From positions 5,188,501 to 5,252,500 of the forward strand of contig NZ_RBXL01000001.1 in NCBI RefSeq assembly GCF_003634315.1: a stretch of DNA of 64,000 nucleotides, read 5' to 3'. Below the pieces are notes generated by a model that was not told the origin of the DNA, made no database searches, and was given only the letters and a program-made list of their open reading frames with translations. The position numbers and the translations under genes are program-made. The stretch comes from Thiocapsa rosea (GTDB lineage: Bacteria > Pseudomonadota > Gammaproteobacteria > Chromatiales > Chromatiaceae). Below, piece by piece: positions 38,997 to 57,305 of this stretch. Position 1 is the first letter of the stretch. Each line of letters opens with the position of its first letter.

Positions 38997-39093
38997 TGGC
39001 GGAAGGGCGTGGGAGTCGAACCCACCCGGGACCGCCTGACGGCCCCAACCGGATTTGAAGTCCGGCCGCCTCACCGGATAGCGAAGCCCTTCC
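38997..39093 (-). tRNA. selC: tRNA-Sec(TCA)
   Basis: The minus strand from 39093 reads GGAAGGGCTTCGC and ends GCGCCCTTCC-type pairing (ACGCCCTTCC) followed by encoded G-CCA at 39000-38997. It has the long eight-base acceptor stem, a long variable arm (GGGGCCGTCAGGCGGTCCC) and the anticodon loop CTTCAAA with anticodon TCA. At about 97 nt with CCA it has the size of a selenocysteine tRNA. It sits 11 bp after selB and before selD. Confidence 0.95.
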
Positions 39094-39104
39094 AAAATCG
39101 ATAT

Positions 39105-41060: not shown

Positions 41061-42463
41061 GGCCGGCACAACCCGGCGAGCTGGGCGCAAAAGCCCGCTT
41101 CGTCGTCCAGGCAGCGCAGGTCGAGGAAGAGGACACCGCCCTCGAGCCTCCCGATGACCGGGGTCGGCAGGCCGCGCAGAGCCGCCTCCAGCTCGCGCAG
41201 CACCGCAGACTGCCGGCGAGGCGCACGTACGGCGATCGCCCGGCTCGGGAGCCGCTCCAGGGGCAGCGCACCGCTGCCGATCTGACTCCCGGTCGGCTCG
41301 CTGCTCAAGGCCAACGGCCAACCACTCAGGGCCTGCTGCATGGAGGGCAGCAGCCGCTCCACCTGCGCCGCGATCTCCTCGGCCGTACGGGTCAGCAGTC
41401 GCAGCGTCGGCAACCGCTCGGGCAAACGCTCGGGATCTCGATAAAGCCGCAGGACGGCCTCGAGGGCCGCAAGAGTAATCTTGCCCACCCGCAGGACCCG
41501 CTTGAGCGGGTTTTTCTTGATCCGGGCGATCAGGTCGGCACGCCCGACCAGGATCCCGGCCTGCGGACCGCCGAGAAGCTTGTCGCCGCTGAAGGTGACC
41601 AGATCTGCACCCTGGCGCAAAGCAGCCTGCGGCGTCGGTTCCGCGGGCAGGCCGAAGCGCGCCAGGTCCACCAGTGTCCCGCTGCCCAGATCCACGGCGA
41701 AGGGGACGCCGTGCCCCCGGGCGATGCGGGCCAGCTCGACCTCGGACACCCGGGCAGTGAACCCTTGGATCGCGAAATTGCTGGTGTGCACCCGCATCAG
41801 CAAGCCCGTGCGGGGACCCAGGGCATCCGCATAGTCGTGAGTGTGGGTACGGTTGGTGGTGCCGACCTCTTTGAGACGCGCACCGGCGCGCGTCATGATG
41901 TCCGGGATACGGAAGGCGCCGCCGATCTCCACCAGCTCGCCGCGCGAGACGATCACCTCTTTGCGCGACGCCAGGCTGTTGAGCAACAGAAACACCGCCG
42001 CAGCATTGTTGTTGACGACGGTAGCCGCCTCGGCCCCGGTCAGCTCCCGGAGCCAGCCCTCGACGACCCGGTCCCGGTCGCCGCGGCGTCCGTCGTCCAG
42101 GTCGTACTCCAGTGCGCAGGGCTCGCGTGCCGCCGACGTCAGGGCCTCGATTGCCTCCTCCGGCAGATTAGCCCGCCCGAGATTGGTATGCAGCACGGTC
42201 CCCGTGAGATTGAAGACCCGACGCAGCCGCGGGGCATGGCTGCGTGCCAGAGCTGCCGCCAACCCGGCCGCGAACGGATGCTGGGCAAAGACATCGTCGG
42301 CCGGCCAACCATCGCCGGGGCCGCCACGCCATTCGGCGAGCTGCGTACGCACCTCCGCGAGCACGGCCGGCCGGCCGTACTCGGCCAACAGCGGGACGAG
42401 CGCGGGCCAGCCCAGGATACGATCGACGGACGGGGGACGCTGGTGCGCGGGTAGGCTATCCAA
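41057..42463 (-). CDS. selA: L-seryl-tRNA(Sec) selenium transferase
   Basis: PLP enzyme converting Ser-tRNA-Sec to Sec-tRNA-Sec. It has 468 aa. It shows [58 protein letters not shown] and the PLP lysine in [14 protein letters not shown]. It is coupled to selB (ATGA) and follows fdhE by 43 bp. Confidence 0.95.
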
Positions 42464-42506
42464 GAAAGACGATCCTTAGAGGGACGAGAGGCTGGGGCCG
42501 GCCGGA

Positions 42507-43448
42507 CTAGGCGGAAGTCGCCGGGGCCTCGGGTTGGATCATCATGAAGTTGATGCCCGCCCGGGTAAACCCCTCCTGATCCACCAGCCAATCCAGGGCC
42601 ATGGTTGCCAGATCGTCGGCCCACGGATCGACCCCGAGATCCTTGTCCATCCTGCAGATCTTCAGGTAGCTGCGACACTCGGGACAGGCTTCGGCCTTGA
42701 CCGCCTCGCCCCGGGACTCGAGGCCCAAATAGGTGATGCCCCGGCTGTTGTTGCATTGGCTGCATTGACTGCGCACCAAACGCCACTCGCTGGCGCAGAG
42801 TCCGCAATGCAGATAGCGAGCACCGTCCTCGGCACCGCCGACGCGCACGATGGAGGCAACCGGCGGACTAGCGCAAACCGGGCAAAGACCGGCACCGGCG
42901 GGCGGTCCGACATCATCCGGGTTCAGGCGCGCGGCCTGCGAGGTCCAGGCGACCTGCATTGCAGCGCCGATCAAGGGTGCGCAGGCGAGATCGGGCAGCT
43001 CGGTGGCGTCCGGATCCAGCAGCAGGTGACCCTGCTCCGCCAGCCAGACATCCCCGGAGGCTAGGATGCGCGCGCAGGCGGCCTTCGCCTGATCGGGCAA
43101 TAGATCGGGCGACGCCGCGGTCAGGTGTTCGGCAAGACTCCGAGCAAGTGCGGCCCAGTGCGGATCGGGTTGCCAGCCCGGATGCGCCAAGGGCGGCATC
43201 CCGCCGATCCGACATTGATCCAGGAGTGCGCGCAAGTCACGACCCGAGGCCGTCGACCGGTCCAAAACATCTTGCTGCGCCTCGGCGAGGACTGCGGCAA
43301 AGCGGAGGAAAGCCCCCAGGTCGTGGCCCTCGGCCAAGGCCCTCGCACGCCCTGCCCGCCGGGCGAACAGGTCCGGCGACGGGAGACGCAGCGCGGGAAT
43401 CTCGCGAACGGCGCCGATCAATTCAGGTTGCAGTAAGGCACTCGGCAT
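42507..43448 (-). CDS. fdhE: Formate dehydrogenase accessory protein
   Basis: A 313-aa cytoplasmic maturation factor for respiratory formate dehydrogenase. The C-terminal half has four rubredoxin-like Cys pairs: CPVCASPP, CGLCASEW, CSQCNN and CPECRSY, followed by the family ending DLATMALDWLVDQEGF. It lies between the fdn structural genes and selA, coupling enzyme maturation to selenocysteine supply. Confidence 0.92.
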   Translation of the reverse strand: MPSALLQPELIGAVREIPALRLPSPDLFARRAGRARALAEGHDLGAFLRFAAVLAEAQQDVLDRSTASGRDLRALLDQCRIGGMPPLAHPGWQPDPHWAALARSLAEHLTAASPDLLPDQAKAACARILASGDVWLAEQGHLLLDPDATELPDLACAPLIGAAMQVAWTSQAARLNPDDVGPPAGAGLCPVCASPPVASIVRVGGAEDGARYLHCGLCASEWRLVRSQCSQCNNSRGITYLGLESRGEAVKAEACPECRSYLKICRMDKDLGVDPWADDLATMALDWLVDQEGFTRAGINFMMIQPEAPATSA

Positions 43449-43634
43449 CGAGGATGACCCCTGTCTGGTATCGCTAACGCGGCGCGAGAAGGACCTCGGC
43501 CACCCTGTCGTTGCGCCCGTTGTGCCGTTGCGGCACAGGGGCTGGTTTCAGGATCTCGAGGTGAGCCCGCTCGCCGCGCATCGGACCCTGCCGGAGACAC
43601 CGAACGGATCGGCCCCTCCGCTATCGGCGGCTAC

Positions 43635-44258
43635 TCATGGCTCCTTGGTCGCCTCGTTGAACCAATCTCGGTGATGCTGTTTCGCCCAGGGGCGCGTCAC
43701 GGTCCCGTACCACATGGCCCGAATCGTCCCTTTCGTCCAGATGGCGGCATAGATATGCATCATGATGAGCGCGATCATAACCACCGAGGTCGCGGCATGC
43801 ACCACGGCCGCGAGTCGGACCAGCTCGACCGAGAAGCTGAACCAACTGCGCCACAGCCCGATGCCGGAGAGGGTGAGTAGGATCATGCAGATCACCAACA
43901 ACCAGAACAGCAGCTTCTGTCCGCCGTTGTATTTGCCCTGTGCCGGCATCTTGTGGTCGTCGCCCTCGGCCATCTCGCCGATACGACGCAGCCATGCCCA
44001 ATCCTTCGCACCCATGAGATTCAGAGTCCAGAAGCGAATCATCATAAACAGGAAGGCAACGGACATCAGCACGCCCACATAGGGGTGCAGGATGCGTGTC
44101 CACACCCCCCCTCCGAACAGTTGGGTCAGCGGCCAGAAGGCCGGATGGAACAGGGCCAGACCGGAGAGTGCGAGCAGGATGAAGGTGATGCCAACCACCC
44201 AATGGTTGACGCGCTCTCCCGTGGTGTAGCGGATGAGGTCGTTCGGGTCGCGTTTCAT
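43635..44258 (-). CDS. fdnI: Formate dehydrogenase cytochrome b subunit
   Basis: A 207-aa membrane cytochrome b556 with four hydrophobic segments. His residues lie in [23 protein letters not shown] and [20 protein letters not shown], matching the heme ligands of FdnI. It passes electrons from FdnH to quinone. Its ATG overlaps the fdnH stop. Confidence 0.92.
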
Positions 44259-45133
44259 TTCTCGAACTCCTTCTCGGTCTCTTTCGAGACCTCGTTCGGG
44301 CCCTTGGCGATATAGTGGAAGAGGCTCGCCAGAGTGACGGCCGCCAGCGCGCCGATGGCCAGCGGCTTGGCGAAGCCTTTCCAGAGCTCGACCAGCGGAT
44401 CGATGGTCGGATTCTTCGGAAGACCCGAGTAGAGTCCCGGCTCATCGGCATGCTGCAGGACATACATGACGTTGGTTCCGCCGACCCCCGGAGCGTCGTA
44501 GAGCCCGGCGTTCATGTATCCCCGCTCCTGGAGCTGCCCGACGCGTGCCTCGGCGTAATGGGCCATGTCGTCCTTCGACCCGAAGACGATCGCCCCGGTC
44601 GGACAGGTCTTGACGCAAGCCGGCTCCAGACCCACGGCCACCCGATCCGAGCAGAGCGTGCACTTGTACGCCTTCTGATCGACCGGGGAGAGCCGGGGAA
44701 TGTCGAACGGACAACCGGTGATGCAGTAACCGCAGCCGATACAGTGCTCCTGATTGAAGTCAACGATACCGTTGGCATAGCGCACGACGGCACCGGGTGC
44801 CGGACACGCCTTCAGGCAGCCCGGATCGGCACAGTGCATGCAGCCGTCCTTGCGGATCAGCCACTCCAACCGACCGGGCTGAACTTCCACCTCCGCAAAG
44901 CGCATCACCGTCCAGGAGGCGTCGCCCAGGTCCGCCGGGTTGTCGTAGACACCGACGTTGTTGCCGATGGCCGGATGCAGGTCGTTCCATTGCGCGCAGG
45001 CCACCTGGCATGCCTTGCAGCCGATGCACTTGGTCACATCGATCAGCTTGGCCACCTCGAGCGGTTGGCGAACCCCGGGGGGCGGTGTCGTCGTGGCCGA
45101 GCGGGCCTCGACGGCGAGGGATTGCATGGTCAT
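44255..45133 (-). CDS. fdnH: Formate dehydrogenase iron-sulfur subunit
   Basis: A 292-aa electron-transfer subunit with four ferredoxin-type clusters: [35 protein letters not shown] and [22 protein letters not shown]-terminal membrane anchor follows ([17 protein letters not shown]). It links the molybdenum subunit to cytochrome FdnI. Confidence 0.95.
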
Positions 45134-45143
45134 GACCGCCTCC

Positions 45144-48100
45144 TCAGACCTTTTCCACGTTGACGAGGAACGCCTTGAACTCCGGCGTCTGCGAGTTGGC
45201 GTCGCCGACGAAGGGCGTCAGCCGGTTGGCCAGGAAGCCCGGCTTGGCAACCCCCACGAACCCCCAATGGATCGGGATTCCGACGGTATGTACCCGCCGG
45301 CCGTGGACATCCAAGGGTCGCAGCCGCTTGGTCACCACGGCCACCGCCAGGATCCGACCGCGCTTCGAGGTCACCTTCACCAAGTCACCGGCAGCGATGC
45401 CTTTCTCCGCCGCGAGCTCCTCGTCGACCTCGACGAACTGCGACGGCTGCAGGACCGCGCTGGAGCGAACGTTCTTGGTCCAGAAGTGCTGATGCTCGGT
45501 CACGCGATAGGTGGTGCCGACATAGGGGAAGTCCTCCGCGCTCCCCAGTTGCTTGGCGTCGTACTCGAACAGGCGCGCGCCCGGGTTGCTGGTCGCGAGC
45601 GGGTTCTCCGGATGCAGCGGGTTGATGCCGAGCGGCGTCTCGAAAGGCTCGTAGTGTTCCGGAAGCGGTCCTTCGGCCATGCCCTTGAGCGCGAACAGAT
45701 GGCCCACGCCGTCCGGCAGCATGATAAAGGGACCGACGTCCAGCTCCGGGGCCGCGTCGGGTCGCATGTCCGGCACGTCGTTGCCGGCCCACCGGGTCCC
45801 GTTCCAGGCGATGGTCTGGCGGGTCGCATCCCAAGGCTTGCCGGCGGTATCGCAGTTGGCTCGGTTGTAGAGCACGCGGCGGTTGGCCGGCCAAGCGAAC
45901 CCCCACTGCGGATAGAAGCCGAGACCGGACGGATCCGCGGTATCGCGACGTGCCATCAGGTTGCCGTCCTGGCTCCAGCTCCCGCAATAGAGCCAGTTGC
46001 CGGAGGCGGTGGTGCCGTCGTCTCGCAACTGGGCGAAGCCCGCAAGCTGATCCCCGGCCTTGACCAGGATCTTGGTCGGATCCTTGGGGTCCGGCAGATC
46101 AGCCAAGGCGCGTCCCGAGAACTCCTTGGCGAGCTCCTCGGGGCTGGGGGCCAAAGGCTGCCCGTAGTCCCAAGTCAGGTTCGTCACCGGATCGGCAAAG
46201 GTGCCGCCCTCCTGCTCGTAGAGACGCCGCAGCCGGTAGAAGATGCCCGCGATGATCTGCAGATCGCTCTTGGCCTCCCCCGGCGGATCCGCAGCCTTCC
46301 AGTGCCACTGCAACACCCGACTCGAGTTGGTGAAGGAGCCGTTCTCTTCGACGAAGCAGGTCGAGGGGAGGCGGAACACCTCGGTCTCGATGCCGCTCGG
46401 CTCGACATTGTTGTAGACGCCGTAGTTGGCCCAGAACTCGGAGGTCTCGGTCACGAGCGGATCGACGACCACCATGAACTTGAGCTTCGCCAGGCCCTCG
46501 CCGACCTTCTGAACGCAGGGCACCGCCGCCAAGGGATTGAAGCCCTGGCAAATGAAGCCGTTCATCTTCCCCTGATGCATGTTCTCGAACATCTGCAACA
46601 CGTCGTAGGGTTTGTCGAGCTTCGGGAACCAGTCATAGCGGAAGTTGTTCTCGGCGGTGGCCGCCCCGCCGTAAAGCGCCTTGGCCAGCGAGACCCGAAA
46701 CTTCGGGAAATTCTGCCAAAAGCTCATCTGGTTGGGACGCAGTGGTTTGGGCGAGCGGGCGTCGAGATACGCTTGCCAATCCTGCTCCCCGTCGGAGGCC
46801 AGCCGCAGGTAACCCGGCAGCATGTTGGTGATCAGGTTCATGTCCGTGATGCCCTGGACGTTGGCATGACCGCGCAAGGCATTGATGCCGCCGCCGACTC
46901 GGCCCATGTTGCCGAGCAGCAGTTGGATCATGGCCATCGCCCGGATCGTCTGAGATCCGGTGGTGTGCTGCGTCCAGCCCAAGGCATAGAGGATGGTCAT
47001 GGTCTTGTCCGGCGTCGCGGTCGCGGCGATCGCTTCGCAGACCGTGATGAAGTCCTCCTCCGAGGTGCCGCACACGTCCTTGACCAAGGCCGGTGTATAG
47101 CGGGCGTAATGCTGCTTCATGAGCCGGTAGACCGACCGCGGGTGAGTCAGGGTCGGATCGGAGATCACGAAGCCGTCCTCCCCGATCTCGTAGTCCCAGG
47201 ACTCGCGGTCGTACTTGCGCTGTGCCGCGTCGTAGCCCGAGAAGATCCCGTCCTCGAAGGCGAAATCCTCCCGCACGAGGTAGGACACGTTCGTGTACCG
47301 GCGAACGTACTCGTGATGGATCTTGTCGTTGTCGAGCAGGTAGTTGATCACCCCGCCCAGGAACGCGATGTCCGAGCCGCTGCGCAGCGGTGCATAAAAA
47401 TCGGAGACAGCCGCGGAACGCGTGAAACGCGGGTCCACGACCACGAGCTTGGCCTTACGGCGTGTCTGGGCCTCGATGACCCACTTGAAGCCGCACGGAT
47501 GTGCCTCGGCTGCATTGCCGCCCATGACGAGCACCAGATCGGCATTCTTGATGTCGACCCAATGGTTGGTCATCGCGCCACGCCCAAACGTCGGAGCCAG
47601 ACTGGCCACCGTCGGGGCATGTCAAATGCGTGCTTGGGTATCGACGGAAACGATGCCGAGTCCGCGTGTCATCTTGGCGGTCAGGTAGCCCGCCTCGTTG
47701 CTGACCGCGCTGCTGGCCAGCAGACCCATGGTGGGCCAGCGGTTGACGGTCTCGCCATCGGCGTTGGTCATGGCGAAGTGCGCGTCGCGGTCATTCTTCA
47801 TCAGGCGCGCGATTCGCTCGAAGGCATCGTCCCAAGAGATGCGCTGCCACTCGCTCGAGCCGGCGGCCCGGTACTCCGGATAGCGGAGACGGTTCTCGCT
47901 GCGGACGAAATCGAGCAGGCCCGCGCCCTTCGGGCAGAGTGTGCCGCGGTTGACCGGATGATCCGGATCGCCCTCGATGTGCACGATGTCCGCCTTGGCG
48001 TTCTTCCCACCGCTGCCGAGGGTGTAGATGATGACGCCGCAACTCACCGAGCAGTAGGGACAGGTATTCCGTGTCTCCATGGTACGGTCGAGCTTGAAGG

Positions 48101-48209
48101 CACGGGCCGACGCCAGTGCGGGCGCGGGCGAAAACCCGAGCGCCGCCAGGCTGGAGGCTCCGGCCCCTGCCGCGCAGACGCGAAAAAAACCTCGACGGGA
48201 TAGTTGCAT
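45144..48209 (-). CDS. fdnG: Selenocysteine-containing formate dehydrogenase catalytic subunit (Sec196)
   Basis: Periplasm-facing molybdenum enzyme oxidising formate; 1021 aa when TGA at 47624-47622 is read as selenocysteine. The N-terminus has a Tat signal ([13 protein letters not shown]) and the 4Fe-4S motif CPYCSVSCG. The context of the TGA is QARI[18 protein letters not shown], exactly the FdnG/FdoG site, and reading continues uninterrupted in the same frame. A SECIS hairpin follows immediately, and selA, selB, selC and selD are downstream. AAAGGAGAT precedes the ATG. Read without Sec it would look like two genes. Confidence 0.96.
47586..47624 (-). promoter_or_regulatory. SECIS element of fdnG
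   Basis: Just after the TGA the minus strand reads GGTGGCCAGTCTGGCTCC, where GCCA pairs with TGGC around a GTC loop flanked by GG/CC. E. coli fdnG has the parallel GGTAGCAAGTCTTGCTCC. The GU-containing loop and the spacing from the UGA match bacterial SECIS rules for SelB binding. Confidence 0.85.
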
Positions 48210-49088
48210 GGATCGGGATCTCCTTTGGTGCGGGTCGTCACTTTCCAGTCCTGTTCACCGAGCCTCGCCTGACGTGGATACGGACCGGAACCGGACTTGG
48301 ATTCGATGGCGACTATTTCATTAATTGCTTAAGTTCTTTTTTAATAACCATAGCTGCATTGAATCAATCCTGACTGTACTGCACAACGATGACGCAATAT
48401 TCAATGAGCGCTTCAGCCAGCTTCAGCCAATACCCTATTATCGGCGGGGAGTATGTTACTCGTCTACCGACGAAGTCAATTGAGAGGATGTTAAAGAACC
48501 TTTTTGGACGAACCGCAGTTCCTCTTGGCGAAACAGCACTCCCGCGATCCGGATCAAGCGGATTTCGGCCAGCCGTCGGGCGACGGAATAGGATACTTTA
48601 GGGGTCGGCGCCGAGACGGTCCTCTTGCGGAGGAGATACCGGTTTCAGGATTAGGCTCAGGTGGATAACATCACCGACGCTGCCGTCGCGTATAGATCGG
48701 GAGTGCCGCGACCGACATCCGTCCGACCGCAAACAGCGCCCATCGGGGCAGCCAAGCCCGATGGCGAGGGAGCCGCGCGTGACCGAGCGCAGGGACCTGG
48801 AGAAGCGCCTGCGGGGCCTGGGGCAGAAAACGGGGGCCAAGCGCGGGCGCAAGCTGAACACAGCCTACGACCGAATTCTGATCGAGCCGAGTGCACAGCT
48901 CGAAGCCAGGGAGTCGTCGGGTCCGGGGGGACTCCTGCCGCACGGGACCTACCGGCTCATGAAGCCGCGTTGGTGGTGGCGAATTCCGCCACCTTACCTA
49001 GTCTCGACTTTGGCCATTTCCGAGCCTCGGCGGGAGGGCTGCGGGTGGTATCGTCCGATGTCGACCAAAACCTCGGACATGCCCGCGG
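48210..49088. other. Intergenic region between fdnG and the island debris
   Basis: Positions 48305-48530 are AT-rich and hold the probable fdnG promoter on the minus strand. From 48660 the sequence turns GC-rich with several overlapping frames; the plus frame around 48780-48920 (DLEKRLRGLGQKTGAKRGRK) is not recognisable. Together it looks like decayed mobile DNA marking the left part of the island. Confidence 0.4.
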
Positions 49089-49542
49089 ATGTTCCCTCTG
49101 CCAGCCTCGATTGTCCCTGTTCTGCAGCCCTTTGCCGGCCTGTTCACCGCGCCGACCCTGGCGCATCTGCACGTCTTGCTGATGGGAACGCTGCTGGCGC
49201 TAGGGCCGCGCACGGTGATTGCGGTGCTGCGGGCGAGGGGCTGAGCGCGGAGCGGCGCTTCGAGCGTTAGCATCGGGTGCTGAATCGGGCGCGCTGGTCG
49301 TCGCGCCAAGGGGCGCGGATTCTGCTGGGGCTGTTGCTCGGGATGTTGCCGGCGCAGGTGCCTCAAAGCCCACGCCATCTTCTCCGATTGCCTGGCCCTC
49401 GTGCAGAGCACGATTTGGGCCGAGGAGAAGTACGTCAACTCAAGGCCCGAGGAGGAGATGGTCCTAATTTCGTCCAAGCGCCGGTCGCCGCGAGTTGCTC
49501 CAGCAGGCGATCCTAAGATTGGCTCAAGTCGAGTTGATCTGA
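49089..49542 (+). pseudogene. Transposase remnant (IS701-like), internally deleted and frameshifted
   Basis: Frame 1 from the ATG at 49089 reads VPVLQPFAGLFTAPTLAHLH and TLLALGPRTVIAVLRARG, then a frameshift. The next frame gives GLSAERRFER, a stop, then HRVLNRARWSSRQGARILLG. A junction near 49360 joins this to the C-terminus (LKAHAIFSDCLALV, TIWAEEKYVNSRPEEEMVLI), and after another shift LLQQAILRLAQVELI ends at 49542. Start and end match large DDE transposases of the IS701/IS4 type, but most of the catalytic core is missing. No inverted repeats were found. Confidence 0.75.
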
Positions 49543-49659
49543 TACTCCCAGTCGTAGCCAGACTACGACAACGACAATTTATTCAAGCAACCCCAATCAC
49601 CCGTTGTGTCATCCAGCATGAGATGCCCCCGGCTACCCTCCCCCCTTGCCTCTCCGGAC

Positions 49660-49790
49660 TCCTCCCGTGCGCTGAACGCTTCCGGCATGTGCGAGATCAG
49701 CGTCATTGTATCGACCGGCTCGCCATCGATCCGCACCTGCAGCGCGGCGTAGCGGTCGAGGTCGGCTTTCAAGCTGACCGGACCCGGGCG
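49660..49790 (-). pseudogene. DUF2274-like remnant from a conjugative element
   Basis: The minus strand encodes VSLKADLDRYAALQVRIDGE followed by PVDTMTLISHMPEAFSARE, resembling the C-terminal half of DUF2274 proteins that sit next to trbI in conjugation clusters. The N-terminal half is absent in this frame. It supports an origin of the region from an integrative conjugative element or plasmid. Confidence 0.5.
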
Positions 49791-49998
49791 ATCGACCGGG
49801 CGGCATCGCCATCGGTATCACCGCGGCAGCGATCGAAGCCACGCGTTCCGCCGCGACAGACGGTCGGAGCACGCGGGCGACGTGCATCATGCGCCCGTTG
49901 ACCGCGTTGCATGCGCGGCGTCTCCCGAAGGGCCCTCCGCGCAACAGCGTGAGTCACCTCCCCGGAGAAGATCCGCACGCACCCGATCCCGGACCGCA

Positions 49999-50673
49999 TC
50001 AAACGCCGCCCCCGCTGCGCCGATAACTCGGCCAGGTGAAGGACACCACGGCGGAGTCGCCTTCGCAGAGCCGGTCCATGATCCGCTCGCCGAGGTAACC
50101 CTCCATCTCCTCGTCGGTCAGGTTGCCGATCAGGATCGTGGCACGCAGGTTCGCATAACGCGTATCGAGCACGTCGAACAGCATCGCGCGGCGTTTGTCG
50201 TCGCTGCCGATCGTCAGTCCGACCTCGTCGAGCACCAGCAGGTCGGGGTCGGTCAGCATGGCCAGCGCTTCGCTCTCCGAGCACGCCGCCCGCGTCGCAT
50301 AGGTGTCGCGCACCGTGCGCAGCGCGGCCGGGACGGACATGAACAGCCCCGTGTGGCCGGCCCGGATCACATTCGCGAGGATGGCGCAGGCGAGATGGGT
50401 CTTGCCGGTACCGGGACCGCCAAGCAGGAGCAGGCTGTCGCCGTGACGGGCGCCGGCCGCAAAGCGCGCCGCGTAGCTGCGACAGACCCTCGAGGCCAAC
50501 TCCTGCTGCGGCGTCGTGGCCCGATAGCTATCGAAGGTCTTCGCGCGAAAGCGCGGGGGGATTCCGCAGCGTCCGACGGCCGATTCGAGCCGCCGTTGCG
50601 CCTCGTCCCGGCGTGCGGCCAGGAGTTGTCGGATCTCGCGGCGTCCATGCTCCGCCAGCTCCTCAAGCGACAT
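49999..50673 (-). CDS. DnaC/IstB-like helicase-loader ATPase
   Basis: An AAA+ ATPase of 224 aa from ATG at 50673 (MSLEELAEHGRREI); a longer frame to 50757 exists but overlaps the upstream gene by 95 bp. It has P-loop GGPGTGKTH, Walker B LLVLDEVG, and sensor-1 ATILIGNLTDEE, then ERIMDRLCEG. It most resembles DnaC-type loaders of phages and plasmids, which place the replicative helicase on DNA. IstB transposition helpers are similar, but no istA lies nearby. The partner is probably the HTH protein directly upstream. Confidence 0.85.
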   Translation of the reverse strand: MSLEELAEHGRREIRQLLAARRDEAQRRLESAVGRCGIPPRFRAKTFDSYRATTPQQELASRVCRSYAARFAAGARHGDSLLLLGGPGTGKTHLACAILANVIRAGHTGLFMSVPAALRTVRDTYATRAACSESEALAMLTDPDLLVLDEVGLTIGSDDKRRAMLFDVLDTRYANLRATILIGNLTDEEMEGYLGERIMDRLCEGDSAVVSFTWPSYRRSGGGV

Positions 50674-51400
50674 CAGCCGGCAGCAGCCAGGGGATGCGAT
50701 CGAGCGGGGTCGCTCCGCGGGCGTAGTCTTTGTCGGCGAGTCGTCCGGTCGGCTCATGCGGTGGCCTCTGCGTCGTGCGGGCCTGCAGGGTCTGCAGGCG
50801 CTGGATGAAAATGGCGTCCCAACTCGTGCGGCGCGACCCGGTGTCGGACCAGTAGGCGACGAACTCCGCGACCTGGTCCTGGACCCAGTCGCGTGCGATG
50901 CCCTGCTTGGCGGCCCAACTCAGGACCCGCGCACCGGGACCCCAGTCGGGCGGAATCGGGCGCGCCGGATCGGGTCTGCGTTTCGGGGTCTGTTGCCCCC
51001 GGTGCAGGGGCGTGACGCCTCCGGTTCGGGGATTCGGCACCGTCGGGTCGAGCGGATCCAAGACGATCGCAGGTCCGTCGTCGAGGGGCATGGGTTCACT
51101 CACCCACGCCGTCTCCCCATCGCGGGTCGGCACCTGCGCGGGGGATGTGCCGACCGCAAGGCTATAGAGGGTGCGCTGCGGCCGGCTGCGCGCGCGCTGG
51201 AGCAGACCGCGCGCCTCGAGTGCCGCCAGAGAGCGCGTGACGGTGCGCCGATCGACCTCGGCGCGCGCGGCCAGGCGCGACAACGACGGCCAGCAGCCGC
51301 CCGCCTCGTCGGCATGTTCGGCCAACGCCAACAGGACCAAGCGCTGTGCCGGCGTCAGTCCACGGCAGTCCCAAGCCCAATCGCGTGCCGCTCGGCTCAT
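50663..51400 (-). CDS. Helix-turn-helix replication-initiation-like protein
   Basis: A 245-aa protein. Residues about 10-75 form a winged-helix domain (LTPAQRLVLLALAEHADEAG, CWPSLSRLAARAEVDRRTVT). A proline-rich linker and a C-terminal domain follow (ARDWVQDQVAEFVAYWSDTG, RRTSWDAIFIQRL), resembling DnaT/phage O-type helicase recruitment domains. It overlaps both neighbours: its start lies on the XRE stop and its end on the DnaC-like start. It is likely an element's replication module. Confidence 0.75.
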   Translation of the reverse strand: MSRAARDWAWDCRGLTPAQRLVLLALAEHADEAGGCWPSLSRLAARAEVDRRTVTRSLAALEARGLLQRARSRPQRTLYSLAVGTSPAQVPTRDGETAWVSEPMPLDDGPAIVLDPLDPTVPNPRTGGVTPLHRGQQTPKRRPDPARPIPPDWGPGARVLSWAAKQGIARDWVQDQVAEFVAYWSDTGSRRTSWDAIFIQRLQTLQARTTQRPPHEPTGRLADKDYARGATPLDRIPWLLPADVA

Positions 51401-51621
51401 ATCGGCCGCCCATGGTCGGGGCGACGTTGCAGCAGATCCACGACCTCGACATCCAGAGCGCGGGCGATGCGGCGCAAACTGGCGAGGGTCGGGTTGGCGT
51501 CGCCGGTCTCGATGCGGCAGATCCAGGCTTGCGAGGCCCCGGCGCGCTTGGCCACTTCGGCTTGGGTCCGACCCGATCGCCTGCGCAGGTGACGGAGGTT
51601 TCCTCCGATGGTGCTGTTCAT
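51397..51621 (-). CDS. Small XRE-family transcriptional regulator
   Basis: A 74-aa single HTH domain: LRHLRRRSGRTQAEVAKRAG, SQAWICRIETGDANPTLASL, ARALDVEVVDLL. ATG at 51621 has GGAG at good spacing; an ATG nine codons earlier (51648) has none. It is coupled to the replication-like gene (ATGA), so it probably controls that operon. Confidence 0.82.
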   Translation of the reverse strand: MNSTIGGNLRHLRRRSGRTQAEVAKRAGASQAWICRIETGDANPTLASLRRIARALDVEVVDLLQRRPDHGRPI

Positions 51622-52143
51622 TCGGGGCTCCGAATCGCTGTCTGTCATATCCGGGCCGGCGCGCCGGGCAAACCGTGACGCTGCCGCCGCCGACATGGAA
51701 CGCGCTCGAGACCGTCCCGCAGGCAGCGTGGCCGAAGCGTTGGCCGGTGCGGAAAGCGTCCTCGAACGCTGGACAGATGATAGGCCGATCGCGAGCGCAG
51801 CGAAGCCGCTCAAGATGACGCTTTTCGACGTCTTTCGCGTGTTTTGCGCTTTGTTGTCGGCAATCGGGAGCGAGGTGGCGCAGCGCCGGGCCGGAGCGGC
51901 CCGACACCTGAGCAGTCGGAGACGGACAGCGGGAGGATGGCCGGCGCGGGCTTGGCGATTTCTGCCGGTCCATCGTCGCTGCTTGGACGGAAGGCCCGAT
52001 CGTCCTCGCAATCCCCGGCAGGTGGGCCCTGCCGAGGGCGCGCGGGGCCGTGCGTGTACCCCGTCACGATCGCGCTGCATCGGCAGCGGTCGGTGTGTTT
52101 CCGCAGAGACGTGGACGCTCGCGCACGAGCGGCCGCCCTCGAA
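51622..52143. other. Intergenic region upstream of the XRE-replication operon
   Basis: About 520 bp with only shadow frames. A more AT-rich stretch (TTTTCGACGTCTTTCGCGTG, about 51820-51860) is the probable promoter of the XRE-replication operon on the minus strand. An origin of replication of the element could lie here, but no iteron array was seen. Confidence 0.35.
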
Positions 52144-52545
52144 TCAGGAGGATTCGAGCATCGTCGCGATCGTAAAACTGATCAGGCTCAAGATCAGCAT
52201 GACGAATCCGATGGTCAAAAGGATGTTGTCGGGCATCTCCGACAGGAACTCCACCAGGTAGAGCGGGGCGATGGCGGCGAACATCAGCACCGAGCCGAGC
52301 ACCCGCAACAGGCTACGTTGCTGGCGGTGGCAGCGCTGGACCGCCGGCGGCGCAGCGGCCATCGCGGGAAGATCGATTCGATGATCGGGATGCGGGTGTT
52401 CGAACGCGTTGTGATTCTTGAGATTGATGCCGCCGATATCGATGCTCAACGACGGCATCGCCACGTCCGACGGCCTCGGCTTGGGCACGCTGTCGCCCAT
52501 GATCCCGCGAATTGTCGAACGGATTTCATCACTCTTGTCGAGCAT
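52144..52545 (-). CDS. Small membrane protein of the island, function unknown
   Basis: A 133-aa protein from ATG at 52545 with GGAGG seven bases upstream. The N-terminal 80 residues are polar (LDKSDEIRSTIRGIMGDSVP); two C-terminal hydrophobic segments follow (LLRVLGSVLMFAAIAPLYLV and NILLTIGFVMLILSLISFTI). No family was recognised. It lies between the two XRE genes and may be an element-maintenance or exclusion protein, which is a guess. Confidence 0.6.
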   Translation of the reverse strand: MLDKSDEIRSTIRGIMGDSVPKPRPSDVAMPSLSIDIGGINLKNHNAFEHPHPDHRIDLPAMAAAPPAVQRCHRQQRSLLRVLGSVLMFAAIAPLYLVEFLSEMPDNILLTIGFVMLILSLISFTIATMLESS

Positions 52546-52696
52546 CGAACAACCTCCGCTGTTCCGTGATCCGAAGTATCCACCTGATATCAAACGCATC
52601 GGATCGTCGCCCGGCGCATCGACCGCGTCAACGCAAAAACGCGTCTTGCGATCGTCATTCCGGGGCGGATTCGCCGAACCGTGAACTCGGTCACGC

Positions 52697-53167
52697 TCAG
52701 CTCGCCAGCCTGACGAGCTCCAACACCGGCGCCTTGCGGACGTCTTCGCTGCTGCGATAGAGGCTGTAGAGCGCCGCGACCAGCTTGGCCTTCTTCGCAG
52801 GCGTCAAGGTCGCGCCGATCTCGTCGAGTCCGCCTTCGACCGACTCGAGCAGGGTTTCCAGCAGATCCACGTCGACCGGACCCCGGACCATCGCGTCCGT
52901 GCCGTCCTCGGCGCGCCCCTGCCCGGTTGCCAGCCAGAGCAGGGACACACCGGCTACGCGGGCGATATCGACCAGCTTGTCCGCCCCGGGAACGCTCGCG
53001 CCCGCGAGGTACTTGCGGAAGATGCTCTCGGAAATTCCGCACTTTTGCGCGAATGCATTCGTGGACAGCACACCCTTGGCCCGCGCCAGGCGCGTCGCGA
53101 ATCCGGCGGCATCCCAGAAGACTTCGCAATCTAAATCAGAATCTTGCTTGTCCATCGTCATGGTCAT
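52697..53167 (-). CDS. Phage-repressor-like XRE protein
   Basis: A 156-aa protein with an N-terminal HTH (RLARAKGVLSTNAFAQKCGI, SESIFRKYLAGASVPGADKL, ARVAGVSLLWLATG) like C2/CI-type phage repressors, and a C-terminal helical part. No LexA-like peptidase motif is evident. Three in-frame ATGs (53167, 53161, 53155) are possible starts. It is divergent from the FlhD/FlhC-like pair. In SXT/R391 elements the repressor SetR likewise opposes FlhCD-like activators, so it is the likely brake on the element. Confidence 0.78.
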   Translation of the reverse strand: MTMTMDKQDSDLDCEVFWDAAGFATRLARAKGVLSTNAFAQKCGISESIFRKYLAGASVPGADKLVDIARVAGVSLLWLATGQGRAEDGTDAMVRGPVDVDLLETLLESVEGGLDEIGATLTPAKKAKLVAALYSLYRSSEDVRKAPVLELVRLAS

Positions 53168-53302
53168 ATCACTCAAGTCGAGCGCCGAGAAAACGCGTGA
53201 TAAGACGATCAAAGTCGCTTATTGAGCGTTTTTGTTTGACAAGTTCGTTTTATACGCACGATTATAGCACCGTCAACCTGTTTTTCTGCCGTGAGAACGA
53301 AG
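53168..53302. promoter_or_regulatory. Divergent operator between repressor and FlhDC-like activators
   Basis: AT-rich region with a perfect -35 hexamer TTGACA at 53236-53241 and a -10-like region around 53258-53267 for the plus strand. It is the expected binding site of the XRE repressor. Confidence 0.5.
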
Positions 53303-53659
53303 ATGACGGACATACCCTCAGACCCCGGCGTGCGACCGGACCGACCGGACCCTTCGCCCCATCTCGATTGCGAGGTCGATACCCTGAATCTGATGTGGCT
53401 GCTCGGTGCCCGCGAACTTGCCCGTTCGGACGCCGAAAAGGCCGTCTTGGTCTATGGTCTCGACCCGGAAGTGCTGGACATCCTGCGGCACGCCTCGCTC
53501 GCGATGCTGCGCGAACTGGCCGCTTCGGGCGTACTGTTGTTTCGACCGCGCTTTCGCGTGTGCTGGCTGCAGGACCGTCTTCGCACGACCGGGCCGTCCG
53601 CACTCGGGTTGGGGCTGCAGGTGATTCTGCTCGCCGCCGAGGAGGTCGCGCAGCCATGA
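53303..53659 (+). CDS. FlhD-like transcriptional activator subunit
   Basis: An 118-aa protein (122 if GTG at 53291 is used). Its centre, LNLMWLLGARELARSDAEKA then VLVYGLDPEVLDILRHASLA and MLRELAASGVLLFRPRFR, follows the FlhD pattern (LSYLLLAQRLIVQDK, FRLGI, LPQMVKLAETNQLVCHFRF). FlhD partners FlhC in a DNA-binding complex. The island context and repressor neighbour argue for an element activator, not flagellar control. Confidence 0.75.
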   Translation: MTDIPSDPGVRPDRPDPSPHLDCEVDTLNLMWLLGARELARSDAEKAVLVYGLDPEVLDILRHASLAMLRELAASGVLLFRPRFRVCWLQDRLRTTGPSALGLGLQVILLAAEEVAQP

Positions 53660-54255
53660 GACTTCGGCATCACGCCAGAACGCAGCTGGCGATCGCCCTG
53701 ATCCGGCGCGGCATGCGCACCTCGCTTGTGGGGAGGATCAGCGGTCTGCGGCCGGCCGTGCTGCGCGAACTGCACCACGAGATCCACGGCTGCAAGCCTT
53801 TGCCCGGTCAGCTGCCGAGCACCGGCAGTCTGCTCGGCACGGCGCGACGGCAGGCCAACGCATCGCTGTTCGCGGGCTTGTATCGGGCCTTCGGCGGCAC
53901 GGCGGTTCAGCGGAGCATCGACGTCGAGGCGCTGCTCACGGGGCACCGCCTCTATCTGGAACAGATGGCGGGGTTGACGGGATCCGACACGCTCGGCCCA
54001 CCCCTCGACATCAATCATGGCTGGGTGATCGCTCGCGACCTCACCACGGGGCTCGTGCTCTTCCGCACCTGCGAGCGCTGCGCGATCCCCTACGTGGCCG
54101 GGGCGTTCTCGCGCCGGTCCGTGGATTGCCCGATCTGCGCGTTGAAGGTGTCTCGGACGGGGCGTGACCGCAAGGACGACGCACCGACGGAGCCCCTCGC
54201 CTCCTCGGCGGCCAAGCAAGGCAAACCGAATCGAGACGCGAAAACACACTCTTGA
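53656..54255 (+). CDS. FlhC-like transcriptional activator subunit
   Basis: A 199-aa protein coupled to the FlhD-like gene by ATGA. It has the FlhC architecture: N-terminal helices (QLAIALIRRGMRTSLVGRIS, GLRPAVLRELHHEIHG), SLFAGLYRAF, the segment VEALLTGHRLYLEQ, and the zinc site C139-x2-C142 ... C158-x2-C161 in FRTCERCAIPY and DCPICAL. AcaDC and SetCD, activators of conjugative transfer, are FlhDC homologues (established knowledge). This pair is likely their analogue here. Confidence 0.8.
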   Translation: MRLRHHARTQLAIALIRRGMRTSLVGRISGLRPAVLRELHHEIHGCKPLPGQLPSTGSLLGTARRQANASLFAGLYRAFGGTAVQRSIDVEALLTGHRLYLEQMAGLTGSDTLGPPLDINHGWVIARDLTTGLVLFRTCERCAIPYVAGAFSRRSVDCPICALKVSRTGRDRKDDAPTEPLASSAAKQGKPNRDAKTHS

Positions 54256-54371
54256 CCACGAACCGCTTTTCTCGACGGGCGCAATTAGATTCAGCCGAAC
54301 GCTATTCGGACTCGCGACACTGCGGGTGCTCGCTGACGCGCAACGAACCGATCACATCATGGAGATCCCGC

Positions 54372-54698
54372 ATGCCAACCTGCGTCCTGCGTTTACGAAC
54401 TGTCTTGGAGCGTACCGGCTACAGTCGCTCCGGACTCTATGCCCGCATCGCCGCCGGGTTGTTTCCGCGACCGATCGCGCTCGGTGCGCGCGCGTCCGCT
54501 TGGCCCGAGCATGAGATCGACGCGGTGATCGCCGCGCTGATCCGTACGATCGACGATGAGGACCTGCGCACCCTGGTCGACGGTCTTCATACACAGCGAT
54601 CGACCTTCGGACTCGGCGGCGATTCCGGCGCCGTCGGTGGCGCGACCGTCGCGTCTTCGCCCCGTCCAAAGTCGCACGCGGTGCGCAGAGCAGGCTGA
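54372..54698 (+). CDS. AlpA-like DNA-binding protein
   Basis: A 108-aa protein from ATG at 54372 behind GGAG. It has an AlpA/MerR-type winged helix: VLRLRTVLERTGYSRSGLYA, RIAAGLFPRPIALGARASAW, EHEIDAVIAALIRTIDDEDL. AlpA proteins regulate integrase or excision genes in islands and prophages. It follows the FlhDC-like pair on the same strand. Confidence 0.8.
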   Translation: MPTCVLRLRTVLERTGYSRSGLYARIAAGLFPRPIALGARASAWPEHEIDAVIAALIRTIDDEDLRTLVDGLHTQRSTFGLGGDSGAVGGATVASSPRPKSHAVRRAG

Positions 54699-55404
54699 AA
54701 CAGGCGGCGTCTTTCCGATTCGGTGCGAAGCAACGGCGGACCGGTGCGGATCGCGCACACACTGCCCTCCCGTGACGGCGAGCGGAGGCGGCCCGTGTGA
54801 TCTTCCTCGACGGCGCATTCGACTCGACCGCCCGCGGTGTCGCCTAAGACGCGATGGCGCTAGTGGGTCTTCTGAGAGTACGGGATGCGCCTTTGGGTGG
54901 TCGAGCCGCCGGCGCGATCGGCGACGCGCCGGGTATAGCCTAAACCGGGCTACCGGAACGAACGTGGCCGAGGACGCTCCGACGCCGTGATGCACCTTCG
55001 GGCACCGGCACCTATCGCCATCTGCGAGGTCGACCGACGGCTGCAAGCGGCGGATCGCGCACGTCCGCGTCGACATGGCGCTGTCTCGTGCAAACCCTCA
55101 TCCAACACCCGCGACAACAACAAGGCGCGATCGGAGAAGTGGGCCGTCGCGACCAACATGATGCGCGTGTCGCTCAGCCCGCGGGGTCGCTTGGTCGGTA
55201 TGCAATCGGCATCGACATTGGGGGGTAACCATCAGCCGGGACAATTGCGACACACACGGGAAGCAGACGTCGAGGCGGTCTCGACGAGGTGCGGCGATCT
55301 CACATGGAAGATCACCCAGTGAACGAAGAGAGGATGTATTCTCGACTGCGGCCGTTCGGGATCGGCTACGTTGTCCAAGGACGGCTTGTGAAAGCCCGGA
55401 GCAT
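54699..55404. other. Gene-poor end of the island
   Basis: About 700 bp next to the tRNA. No intact gene or integrase was found; only mixed short frames. It may be the decayed remains of the integrase region. Confidence 0.4.
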
Positions 55405-55426
55405 TTTGTGGGTACGTTTGTGGGTA
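55405..55426. repeat. Direct repeat, possible integrase arm-type sites
   Basis: TTTGTGGGTA occurs at 55405-55414 and again at 55417-55426, 12 bp apart, about 60 bp from the 3' end of tRNA-Ser. Short direct repeats of this kind beside a tRNA 3' end are typical arm-binding sites of tyrosine integrases in att regions. Confidence 0.5.
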
Positions 55427-55482
55427 TGCCAACTAAACTGTTATTGTTTTTCTTTCTAAAACAACATCTTGAACGAGATTAG

Positions 55483-55573
55483 TGGCGGAGAGGGAGGGAT
55501 TCGAACCCTCGATAGGCTGTTAACCTATACACACTTTCCAGGCGTGCTCCTTAAGCCACTCGGACACCTCTCC
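55483..55573 (-). tRNA. tRNA-Ser(GGA)
   Basis: The minus strand from 55573 gives GGAGAGGTGTCCGAGTGGCT, anticodon loop CTGGAAA with anticodon GGA, a long class II variable arm, T-arm GGTTCGAATCC and a matching acceptor CCTCTCC with encoded CCA (55485-55483). Its 3' end faces the island, the usual orientation for integration at a tRNA gene. Confidence 0.95.
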
Positions 55574-55809
55574 GCGGGAAATCGCGATCGAGCCGCGGGA
55601 GACTTGCTCTCCGGTCGCCATGGCCCCGATCTGCGAGCCGCGAAGAATACAGGAAGGTATGATTGCGTTCAAATCAGGCTTGAAAAAACGGGATCGACGA
55701 TGCCTCGGCGACGGGAAATGTCCTGTCCGAAATCCACCTCCCCCCGAAAGCCACTCAGCGAGAAACCCACCGAAACATGATTTCCCGAAAGGATCCGGGG
55801 CGTCCGGCG
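55574..55809. other. Intergenic region between tRNA-Ser and methyltransferase
   Basis: About 235 bp with no gene seen. It holds the tRNA promoter on the minus strand and the upstream region of the methyltransferase. Confidence 0.35.
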
Positions 55810-56610
55810 ATGTCCGATGTTGCCGATCGTTACCGCCTTTATCAGCTTGCCGTCCAGAACCCGCGAACGGAGATCGATTTTGTCGACCGCACCTTTCGGC
55901 AATTACGCGGACGAAGCGCCCGCGTGCTGCGGGAGGATTTCTGCGGAACGGCGGCGGTGTGCTGCGAGTGGGTCGGTCGACGCAAACGCAATCGGGCTTG
56001 CGGTGTCGACCTTGATCCCGATGTCCTGGCCTGGGGGCGGCGTCATAATCTCCCTGCGCTGGACGCGGCGGAACGGGGGCGGATCGCTTTGATCGAGGGC
56101 GATGTCCGCGAGATCGAGACGCCCTCCCCCGACATCGTGTTGGCGATGAATTGCAGCTATTGGCTGCTCCGCGACCGCTGCCATCTGCTGCGCTATTTCG
56201 AGCGGGTGCGTGACGCCTTGGCCGTGGGCGGTATCTTCTTTCTCGACGCCTTCGGGGGTTACGACACCTTTCGCCTGTTGACCGAGGAGCGACGCGTCGA
56301 GGATCCGCAGGGCGGCAGCTTCACCTACATCTGGGAGCAGGCCCTGTACGAGCCCGTCACCGGCAGGCTGGTCTGTCATATTCATTTTCGGTTCGACGAC
56401 GGATCGGAATGGCCGCGTGCCTTCAGCTACGATTGGCGGCTGTGGACCTTGCCTGAGATCCGCGAACTGTTGGCGACGGCCGGTTTCTCGCGTGTGATGG
56501 TCTATTGGCAGGGATGGGATCCGGACGGAAAACCGGACGGTGTCTTCGTGCCGGTCGAGAGCGGGGAGCCGGACGCCGGGTGGATCGCTTATCTGACGGC
56601 GGAGAAGTAG
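55810..56610 (+). CDS. Class I SAM-dependent methyltransferase
   Basis: A 266-aa cytoplasmic methyltransferase. The SAM-binding region is VLREDFCGTAAVCCEWVG, acidic strand end ACGVDLDPDV, and motif IALIEGDVRE. The catalytic region is DIVLAMNCSYWLL, then GGIFFLDAFGG. The substrate is unknown. An in-frame ATG 11 codons upstream (55777) is also possible; neither has a strong site. A bidirectional terminator follows at 56726. Confidence 0.85.
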   Translation: MSDVADRYRLYQLAVQNPRTEIDFVDRTFRQLRGRSARVLREDFCGTAAVCCEWVGRRKRNRACGVDLDPDVLAWGRRHNLPALDAAERGRIALIEGDVREIETPSPDIVLAMNCSYWLLRDRCHLLRYFERVRDALAVGGIFFLDAFGGYDTFRLLTEERRVEDPQGGSFTYIWEQALYEPVTGRLVCHIHFRFDDGSEWPRAFSYDWRLWTLPEIRELLATAGFSRVMVYWQGWDPDGKPDGVFVPVESGEPDAGWIAYLTAEK

Positions 56611-56622
56611 GCATCTCGCGGG

Positions 56623-56709
56623 TTAAACCGCGCCCAGCGCGGTATGCGATGTTTTTGGATGGGATCGGCCCCGGCAGATTCGACGACCGCTGGAGCAGGC
56701 GCGGCTTAA
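56623..56709. repeat. Mini-element family A, copy 1
   Basis: An 87-bp element with inverted ends: TTAAACCGCGCC at the left and GGCGCGGCTTAA at the right (11 of 12 match). The interior (CAGCGCGGTATGCG, CGGCC, TGGAGC) matches, in inverted orientation, the element at 57595-57687. It has no coding capacity. Confidence 0.75.
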
Positions 56710-56725
56710 GAGATTAAAAAATAAA

Positions 56726-56754
56726 GGATGGGTTTCGCTTCGCTCTACCCATCC
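56726..56754. terminator. Bidirectional rho-independent terminator
   Basis: GGATGGGT (56726-56733) pairs with ACCCATCC (56747-56754). GTTTTTG follows on the plus strand, and TTTATTTTTTA on the minus strand. It serves both the methyltransferase and mobB, whose stop codon lies inside the stem. The sequence also matches a hairpin repeat common downstream of genes in gammaproteobacteria (translates as GRAKRNPS-type shadow frames). Confidence 0.8.
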
Positions 56755-57305
56755 GTTTTTGGGGCCGGGGGGATGCGTAAGCGGATGTCTTGGAGGCGGG
56801 ACAGGATGAAATCGGCGACGGCCTCGGAGGTGTTGAGGGGGAGGACGACGAGCGGCGGCTCGACCGCGAGGGGCGCGTCGGTGGCGACGGCGATGATTCC
56901 CGGATCACCCGGGTAGAGCGGGGCCTCCCCGGTGGTCGGGCGATGGACCTCGATCTTCGGATAGTCCGCATGCTTGAAGCCTTCCACGAGGACGAGATCG
57001 AGTCTGTCGAGCTCGAACCGCGCGAGCATCCGATGGAGATCCGGGTCCTCGTCCTGCACCGGATTCTGGACCTGCAACGCCCAGCGCGCCTTGGAGGCGA
57101 GCAGGGTCTGATGCGCACCGGCCTCGCGCACCTCGTAGCTGTCCTTGCCGGGCACGTCCAGGTCGAAGCGATGGTGTGCATGTTTGAGGTAGCCGACACG
57201 CAGACCTCGACCGCTGAGAACGGCGACGACTTGCCGAACCAAGGTGGTCTTGCCCGACCCACTCGGGGCAACGAAGCCGACCACGGGGATGATTGTCTCG
57301 CCCAT
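56745..57305 (-). CDS. mobB: Molybdopterin-guanine dinucleotide biosynthesis protein B
   Basis: A 186-aa P-loop GTPase: VVGFVAPSGSGKTTLVRQVV, then HAHHRFDLDVPGKDSYEVRE and LVLVEGFKHADYPKIEVHR, all typical of MobB. It assists MobA in making bis-MGD cofactor, needed by the formate dehydrogenase FdnG of this window. ATG at 57305 was chosen because the P-loop begins 12 residues later; the frame upstream crosses a mini-element. The stop sits in the terminator stem. Confidence 0.93.
   Translation of the reverse strand: MGETIIPVVGFVAPSGSGKTTLVRQVVAVLSGRGLRVGYLKHAHHRFDLDVPGKDSYEVREAGAHQTLLASKARWALQVQNPVQDEDPDLHRMLARFELDRLDLVLVEGFKHADYPKIEVHRPTTGEAPLYPGDPGIIAVATDAPLAVEPPLVVLPLNTSEAVADFILSRLQDIRLRIPPAPKTDG

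Follow-up and report, generated by a model that had tools for sequence, protein, structure and literature searches.

The control of conjugation by FlhDC-family activators is known mainly from mobile elements of enteric bacteria and vibrios. Two such systems serve as models here: the SetR/SetCD switch of SXT/R391 integrative and conjugative elements (ICEs), for which RecA-dependent induction is described (PMC4344509), and the SgaDC activators of the island SGI1, with sgaDC under LexA control (PMC9927553). The present analysis concerns a stretch of 64,000 nucleotides (the window; C1:5188501-5252500) of the 6.11-Mb genome of the purple sulfur bacterium Thiocapsa rosea, in which a CI-type repressor gene stands divergent from a coupled flhD-flhC pair that is followed by alpA. 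Together with adjoining replication genes, this module (window 49999-55496) probably forms the end at which a 170.9-kb integrative island keeps its control and replication genes, the island being derived from a Thiocapsa ICE family that resembles SXT and IncC, with the CI-flhDC switch driving excision. The gene content, the attachment repeat, the integrase and ten-gene type IV secretion system (T4SS) operon at the island's far end, and the presence of the same module on tra-bearing ICEs are established at the level of sequence; their best reading is an ICE-derived island without a relaxase of its own, in a family whose ICEs appear to carry two FlhDC pairs, and excision, or mobilisation by a co-resident ICE, is plausible.

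Profile searches, which an earlier note on this DNA had named as the way to check its FlhD-like and FlhC-like genes, detected both subunits where it had placed them, each above the Pfam cut-off of 27 bits and with reading frames overlapping by 4 bp (Table 1). Profiles built from eight relatives recovered the solved FlhC chains 2avu and 8j56 (E 4.5e-25 and 5.2e-23) and the solved FlhD chains 8j56, 1g8e and 5hxg (E 3.2e-11 to 1.7e-6). The four zinc cysteines ascribed to the FlhC-like protein all align with those of E. coli FlhC, and C139, C142, C158 and C161 are unchanged in the eight aligned sequences. The note's AlpA gene and replication module were likewise recognised by Pfam, the latter as a DnaC/IstB-like ATPase and a protein with HTH_36 and DnaT domains, and the gene caller moved the start of cI from the 53212 first given to 53167.

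Of the 210 genomes of the family, 37 have FlhC-family genes, among them 6 of the 11 of the genus Thiocapsa. The 18 matches in the genus fall into ten of type A, each beside a CI-type gene as in the window, and eight of type B, situated in the tra region, and the FlhC proteins of the two types are 35-40% identical. The module recurs in a second T. rosea island, where it can be aligned with the window copy over 4.26 kb at about 91% DNA identity (88% by MAFFT for the XRE-FlhC part), and in eight further places in five other Thiocapsa genomes. The aligned stretches of flhD, flhC and cI are free of stops in all ten copies, with median dN/dS (ratio of nonsynonymous to synonymous substitution rates) of 0.33, 0.29 and 0.23, respectively; CI is 154-156 amino acids (aa) long in nine copies and 124 aa in one, and alpA is recognisable in eight, one of which has a stop. 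Identity of the DnaC/IstB-like ATPase is 95-99% in six other copies and 65-68% in three.

A tRNA gene lies beside the type A module in seven of the ten copies: tRNA-Ser(GGA) in four, and tRNA-Ser(GCT), tRNA-Arg(ACG) and tRNA-Arg(CCG) in one each. The remaining three have no tRNA nearby in the 20 kb examined, save for a tRNA-Pyl call in L050 at a distance of about 10 kb. Between genomes G112, at tRNA-Ser(GCT), and G113, at tRNA-Ser(GGA), the XRE-FlhC part is 99.7% identical, and the window's XRE-FlhC part is closest to that of G111 and its flanks to those of G117; such identity across different tRNA sites, together with the discordant flanks, points to movement between species. Host takeover, in which FlhDC and CI would now regulate the cargo or other chromosomal genes, could be suggested by the large metabolic gene block between the island's two ends; it is nevertheless very unlikely given that the same module is found, in the same order, on tra-bearing ICEs and at four different tRNA genes.

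In an FlhC tree of 42 rows, the ten Thiocapsa type A copies and a relative from another genus, G007, form a clade with support of 100/99, separate from the clade in which E. coli FlhC groups with five genomes of another genus; AcaC and pECTOK sit on long branches and their placement is unsure. This separation bears on the alternative, named in advance by the earlier note as what would overturn its proposal, that the pair is an ordinary flagellar flhDC. The window proteins do belong to the same families, yet that identity was rejected and retains next to no probability: the flagellar FlhA family (PF00771), detected in E. coli and three other positive controls, gave no match in any of the six Thiocapsa genomes searched, and the window flhDC are therefore not motility genes; their neighbours, moreover, are mobile-element genes. 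The tree also places the FlhC at G014:C3:92685-93161 (L111), from a genome of 2.7 Mb assigned to the same family, as nearly identical to SetC of R997, and that locus is likely an R391-type ICE.

Type A and type B pairs lie together inside the second island and the elements of G113 and G117, that is, in all three relaxase-bearing elements with both ends located; in G109, G111 (C56) and G112 (C28), for which the stretches considered are without located ends, both pairs and a relaxase fall within 30-54 kb. The type B gene order, transglycosylase-FlhD-FlhC-TraF-TraH-TraG, matches that of R997, in which transglycosylase-FlhD-FlhC is accompanied by traG/H/F nearby, and type B, not the window's pair, is therefore the positional equivalent of SetCD. 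The type A pair of the window is thus an extra pair relative to the SetCD position. Accordingly, the proposed ICE-style switch stands insofar as the module ends tRNA-integrated elements, several of which bear a MobH/SXT-type transfer set, and needs correction in that the SetCD equivalent is the other, tra-linked pair. The type B 'FlhD' of the second island has no Pfam or NCBIfam match; it owes its name to its position and to a weak similarity with the window FlhD (31.7% over 63 aa, E 8e-6).

The only FlhC match of G007 is a type A relative next to an integrase, CI and TraFHG, which suggests that type A can be the sole activator. Elsewhere in the family, G084 and G201, of other genera, each carry two FlhD-FlhC pairs 1.4-2.2 kb apart, so paired FlhDC is not confined to Thiocapsa. 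Those of G084 stand beside a CI-like helix-turn-helix (HTH) gene of 225 aa, about 2 kb from tRNA-Lys, and both of their FlhDs pass Pfam; in both genomes the pairs adjoin ParA/ParB-type genes (by eye), and the 20 kb viewed showed no tra genes of SXT type. In G016, G017, G079, G084, G201 and G204, a single contig carries two FlhC-family genes separated by 1.4-2.4 kb.

The extent of the island was established from attachment repeats, which were sought at seven tRNA sites and found at four (20-89 kb was examined at the other three): 15 bp for the window's tRNA-Ser island and for G113, 17 bp for G117, and 54 bp for the second island at tRNA-Arg(CCG), each near a tyrosine integrase. The resulting elements measure 170.9 kb (window island), 161.7 kb (second island), 122.5 kb and 150 kb. 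The two 15-bp copies of the window island are identical, and a 441-aa tyrosine integrase lies at its far end, outside the window and 174 bp from the repeat at C1:5073116; an integrase and flanking attachment repeats, as expected of an integrative element, are thus both present. Homology between the left ends of the window island and the G113 element begins at the repeat. G110 has no FlhC match; there, the same tRNA and right-hand neighbours have on their other side a 502-aa gene, a 400-aa gene and genes of queuosine type (names assigned by eye), no integrase was noticed by eye at the site, and this tRNA-Ser is apparently empty. Taken together, the repeats, the left-end homology and the G110 site place window positions 1-55482 inside the island. 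Comparison by flank homology among T. rosea, G113, G117 and G109 gave no match because differing DNA adjoins the tRNA in each genome (the G112 flank comprised 14 bases only).

Two other delimitations were set aside. No integrase was recognised among the frames between alpA and the tRNA, the integrase being at the far end instead, and that of the second island found nothing better than E 1.2 in window 48000-57000. A small standalone element of 6 kb was dropped when the repeats delimited islands of 120-170 kb. The 15-bp core occurs a third time at C1:5025523 (L134), with a further integrase (5025929-5027041, Pfam match) and a gene resembling alpA (5024079-5024387) next to it, and apparently delimits an element of 47.6 kb that lies in tandem at this tRNA-Ser.

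The transfer genes found in the window island make up the T4SS operon at its left end, some 150 kb from the module and outside the window. Its ten genes encode DsbC, TraV, a pilin-like protein (below cut-off), a 305-aa protein without a match, TraC (scanned in part), a 115-aa protein (left out of the scan), an S26 peptidase, TraW/TrbC_Ftype, TraU and TraN, and all ten frames are open and within 8 residues of the lengths in the second island. Fourteen other transfer-region proteins (TraD, TraI, MobI, ParM, p90, the transglycosylase, type B FlhD and FlhC, TraF, TraH, TraG, TraB, TraK and TraE) all have matches in the second island, whereas none has one in the window island at E<=1e-5, save for the expected cross-matches of the type B FlhDC to the type A pair. 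The window island, in which the relaxase and coupling protein (TraI and TraD) were not found, an MpsA-type relaxase not having been searched for, therefore differs from a self-transmissible ICE, and any transfer would need the co-resident 161.7-kb ICE. The absence of visible transfer genes remarked upon in the earlier note consequently holds for the window; it extends neither to the island, with its ten T4SS genes, nor to the cell, with the full-looking set of the second island.

That set is of the MobH/SXT type, the second island containing a MobH relaxase, an SXT-type coupling protein and MobI, as do SXT/R391-IncC-like ICEs. By NCBIfam, SXT_TraD (TIGR03743) scored 590.8 bits, MobH (NF041494) 392.9 and TraF 269.1, and by Pfam, TraH scored 310 bits, TraG_N 342, SLT 90.9 and type B FlhC 56, all above cut-off; MobI reached 93.4 bits in Pfam (cut-off 26.6) and had no NCBIfam match. 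The transglycosylase-FlhD-FlhC block stands beside traFHG in this island, its FlhD being recognised by position only. The genome's sole TraI_2 match, at C1:3262799, lies here as well. Partial repeats of the mobI gene were observed between mobI and parM (L005 5020-6260). An origin of transfer (oriT) mimic was sought in the window island and discarded, no significant match being obtained. Inspection by eye suggested a candidate FlhDC target motif, AAAGNC-N1-3-CGTTTTCG, upstream of two operons, parM-flhDC-traFHG and dsbC; a third, weaker match precedes a 93-aa gene of G112. As many further matches with no more than two mismatches occur elsewhere, the motif serves as a lead only.

These gaps also suit a dead relic, a tRNA-Ser ICE that has lost its transfer core and whose switch is now inert, with the open frames reflecting recent decay. 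The 14 missing genes are joined by a genome without a PF03432 match and with a single PF08751 match, below cut-off on contig C2, by insertion sequence-like remnants to the left of the module (window 48200-49900, by eye) and by a diverged operator-like site. Against this stand the open frames of cI, flhD, flhC, alpA, the integrase and all ten T4SS genes, the identity of the two attachment copies, and dN/dS values of 0.21 (cI), 0.23 (flhC) and 0.36 (flhD) for the window copy compared with the nine others; decay of this kind is possible, albeit unlikely.

The repressor resembles CI in its HTH alone. A scan of the 155-aa frame gave no S24 peptidase match at E<=1, and RstR, the sole NCBIfam match, scored 28.6 bits, far under its cut-off of 80; the divergent CI-type HTH gene described in the earlier note is thus upheld, while the label 'SetR-like' is doubtful. 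The HTH stretch is identical between the two T. rosea copies and nearly identical in the others. Between the divergent genes, operator-like repeats of TCGCTTTATAGCG type stand at fixed offsets common to the ten copies; a shuffle test gave 0.2%, an optimistic figure since the consensus was picked by eye from the same sequences. SetR-type SOS induction is not expected because no peptidase domain was detected, and no LexA-type CTG-N10-CAG box occurs within 125 bp of the flhD promoter in any of the ten copies. Both the RecA-dependent control of the SetR model and LexA control like that of sgaDC are therefore unlikely. Guesses as to what relieves CI are an antirepressor and the element's arrival in a cell free of repressor.

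The arrangement suggests that CI acts against the FlhDC activators. It would bind the repeats between the divergent promoters and keep flhDC off; upon its relief, FlhD-FlhC would activate alpA and the integrase at the far end, perhaps along with the T4SS operon, and the island would then excise and be briefly copied by the DnaT/DnaC-like proteins. Thereafter it may use the relaxase and the missing pore parts of the second island. CI, AlpA and the replication genes also resemble those of phage satellites and phage-inducible islands, of which the module could be an end. That identity is extremely unlikely here in view of the F-type T4SS genes of the island and the MobH ICEs with the same module; in addition, reading through the gene list by eye, with no profile search for such genes, revealed none for capsid, packaging or phage response.

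Several observations weigh against an integrative island whose excision is driven by the CI-flhDC switch. The 15-bp repeat is short, and the window's first, CI-side operator-like site has diverged more than its counterparts in the nine other copies. The candidate FlhDC motif was not found upstream of alpA, nor was a copy of the mobI-parM region, the expected place of oriT, found in the window island (best BLAST E 0.008). The 149-kb middle, from one backbone end to the other, is unlike the tra-bearing ICEs, the counterparts compared yielding one 585-bp match (G113) and one of 1.2 kb (second island). Finally, when two pieces of this middle were searched in six other Thiocapsa genomes, a 6.7-kb piece (5093199-5099899) proved to have close relatives elsewhere (G110, 93% over 3.8 kb; G117, 88% in two pieces; G109 and G111, 81%), so that chromosomal rearrangement, as opposed to simple gain of cargo, is possible. 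The other piece, of 10.5 kb with formate dehydrogenase, SelA and SelB genes, has no match longer than 112 bp in G117, G109, G111 or G110, and its relatives in G112 and G113 lie elsewhere in the genome and are mostly 65-78% identical; it behaves as accessory cargo would, and the middle appears mixed in origin. These relatives, like the pairs of G084 and G201, bear on the island's origin and the rarity of the arrangement, not on the identity of the module.

An ICE-derived island with a CI-flhDC excision switch remains the probable reading, and a more elaborate scheme can be put forward tentatively, as a doubtful extension of it. The Thiocapsa ICEs would run a two-tier FlhDC programme in which the CI-guarded pair at the end governs excision and replication and the pair in the SetCD position governs the transfer genes. 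The window island would then be a satellite with its own switch, integrase, replication genes and ten T4SS genes, lacking relaxase and coupling protein, dependent on the co-resident ICE and sharing its repressor specificity.

Table 1. Features of the module and its integration site (window positions).
Feature	Position	Strand	Basis
DnaC/IstB-like AAA ATPase, putative helicase loader, 224 aa	49999-50673	-	Pfam IstB_IS21 4.4e-19 (longer frame 49999-50757 scanned)
DnaT-like replication protein: HTH_36 and DnaT DNA-binding domain	50663-51400	-	Pfam 2.4e-16, 2.3e-15 (scanned as 50663-51436)
Small XRE/Cro-type HTH protein	51397-51648	-	Pfam HTH_31 4.2e-15, HTH_3 8.1e-11 (scanned as 51397-51645)
Conserved 133-aa protein, hydrophobic C-terminus (by eye)	52144-52545	-	10/10 module copies
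CI-type repressor, 156 aa	52697-53167	-	Pfam Phage_CI_repr 1.3e-7 (scanned as 52697-53164)
Divergent promoter region, TTGACA and operator-like repeats of TCGCTTTATAGCG type	53168-53302		Alignment of 10 copies
FlhD-family activator subunit (type A pair)	53303-53659	+	Pfam FlhD 2.6e-7, 31.3 bits
FlhC-family activator subunit (type A pair)	53656-54255	+	Pfam FlhC 8.3e-17, 61.9 bits
AlpA-family HTH protein, putative recombination directionality factor	54372-54698	+	Pfam Phage_AlpA 2.1e-11
Gene-free stretch (no called gene), alpA to attachment site	54699-55481		87-88% alike in 3/9 other copies
15-bp attachment core at tRNA-Ser 3' end, right end of 170.9-kb island	55482-55496 (C1:5243982)		Other copy C1:5073116
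tRNA-Ser(GGA), integration target	55483-55573	-	ARAGORN

Among the remaining features, the 133-aa protein gave nothing in Pfam beyond a sub-threshold DUF2065 match, and its gene has an internal stop in one of the ten copies (L052). Beyond dnaC, L004 1-5887 and L051 13365-17693 have UmuC, UmuD, SRAP, NERD and deaminase-like genes in common (by eye), and an AbiEi/AbiEii toxin-antitoxin pair directly follows dnaC in the G109 element (L045 11882-13488), with similar genes in L052 (by eye). Window 37800-48300 holds a formate dehydrogenase cluster with SelA, SelB and FdhE-like genes (by eye), and a tRNA-Sec gene lies inside the island at 38997-39093. A repeat of about 100 bp at window positions of roughly 56620-56735 recurs in many places in at least seven of the 11 Thiocapsa genomes, among the matches listed.

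The kind of system described here is itself already known; its interesting features are the two-pair arrangement and the cut-down sister island. Purple sulfur bacteria that lack flagellar FlhA now show the same FlhDC logic, on elements with two divergent FlhDC pairs, and in one genome a tra-bearing ICE is accompanied by a reduced sister island whose repressor is closely similar. Neither a Thiocapsa ICE nor two FlhDC pairs in one element appeared in the titles and abstract openings of the open-licence papers listed, which is weak evidence of absence. The two islands thus offer a natural system for asking how an ICE becomes a mobilisable satellite and why two activators are kept.

Compared with known systems, the Thiocapsa elements share with SXT/R391 a CI-related repressor that faces FlhDC-family activators near an attachment end, together with the dsbC/traC/trhF/traWUN, traFHG, mobI and MobH/TraD gene sets. 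They differ in residing in tRNA-Ser and tRNA-Arg genes rather than in prfC, in a repressor without a detected S24 peptidase, where SetR has an autoproteolytic peptidase domain, in carrying two FlhDC pairs and in the window FlhC, which is 34% identical to SetC of R997. IncC plasmids (AcaDC) are likewise MOBH and MPF_F, with a transglycosylase gene followed by a 'hypothetical' gene, which we take to be acaD, and an FlhC-family gene; unlike the islands, IncC is a plasmid, and its FlhC-family protein is 32% identical to the window FlhC over 116 aligned residues. Closer to home, pTs417 of Ca. Thiodictyon syntrophicum carries traD, mobH, mobI, ParM, transglycosylase, FlhC and traF as in the Thiocapsa tra region, and G007, from another genus of the same family, combines tRNA-Arg(acg), int, FlhC (56%), FlhD (62%) and CI (66%), followed by TraF-TraH-TraG; unlike the Thiocapsa ICEs, G007 and G150 (taken as the genome of pTs417) have one FlhC match each. 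SGI1 is not autonomous: it has int, xis and rep, a handful of T4SS genes and an FlhDC pair of its own, next to a helper that encodes a different pair (PMC9927553). It is inserted in trmE and its sgaDC are LexA-controlled, whereas the window island lies in tRNA-Ser with a CI-type neighbour and no CTG-N10-CAG box. In gene content, nevertheless, the window island has what an SGI1-like mobilisable island has: FlhDC, an integrase, a putative directionality factor, replication genes, a partial T4SS and a possible helper in the same cell.

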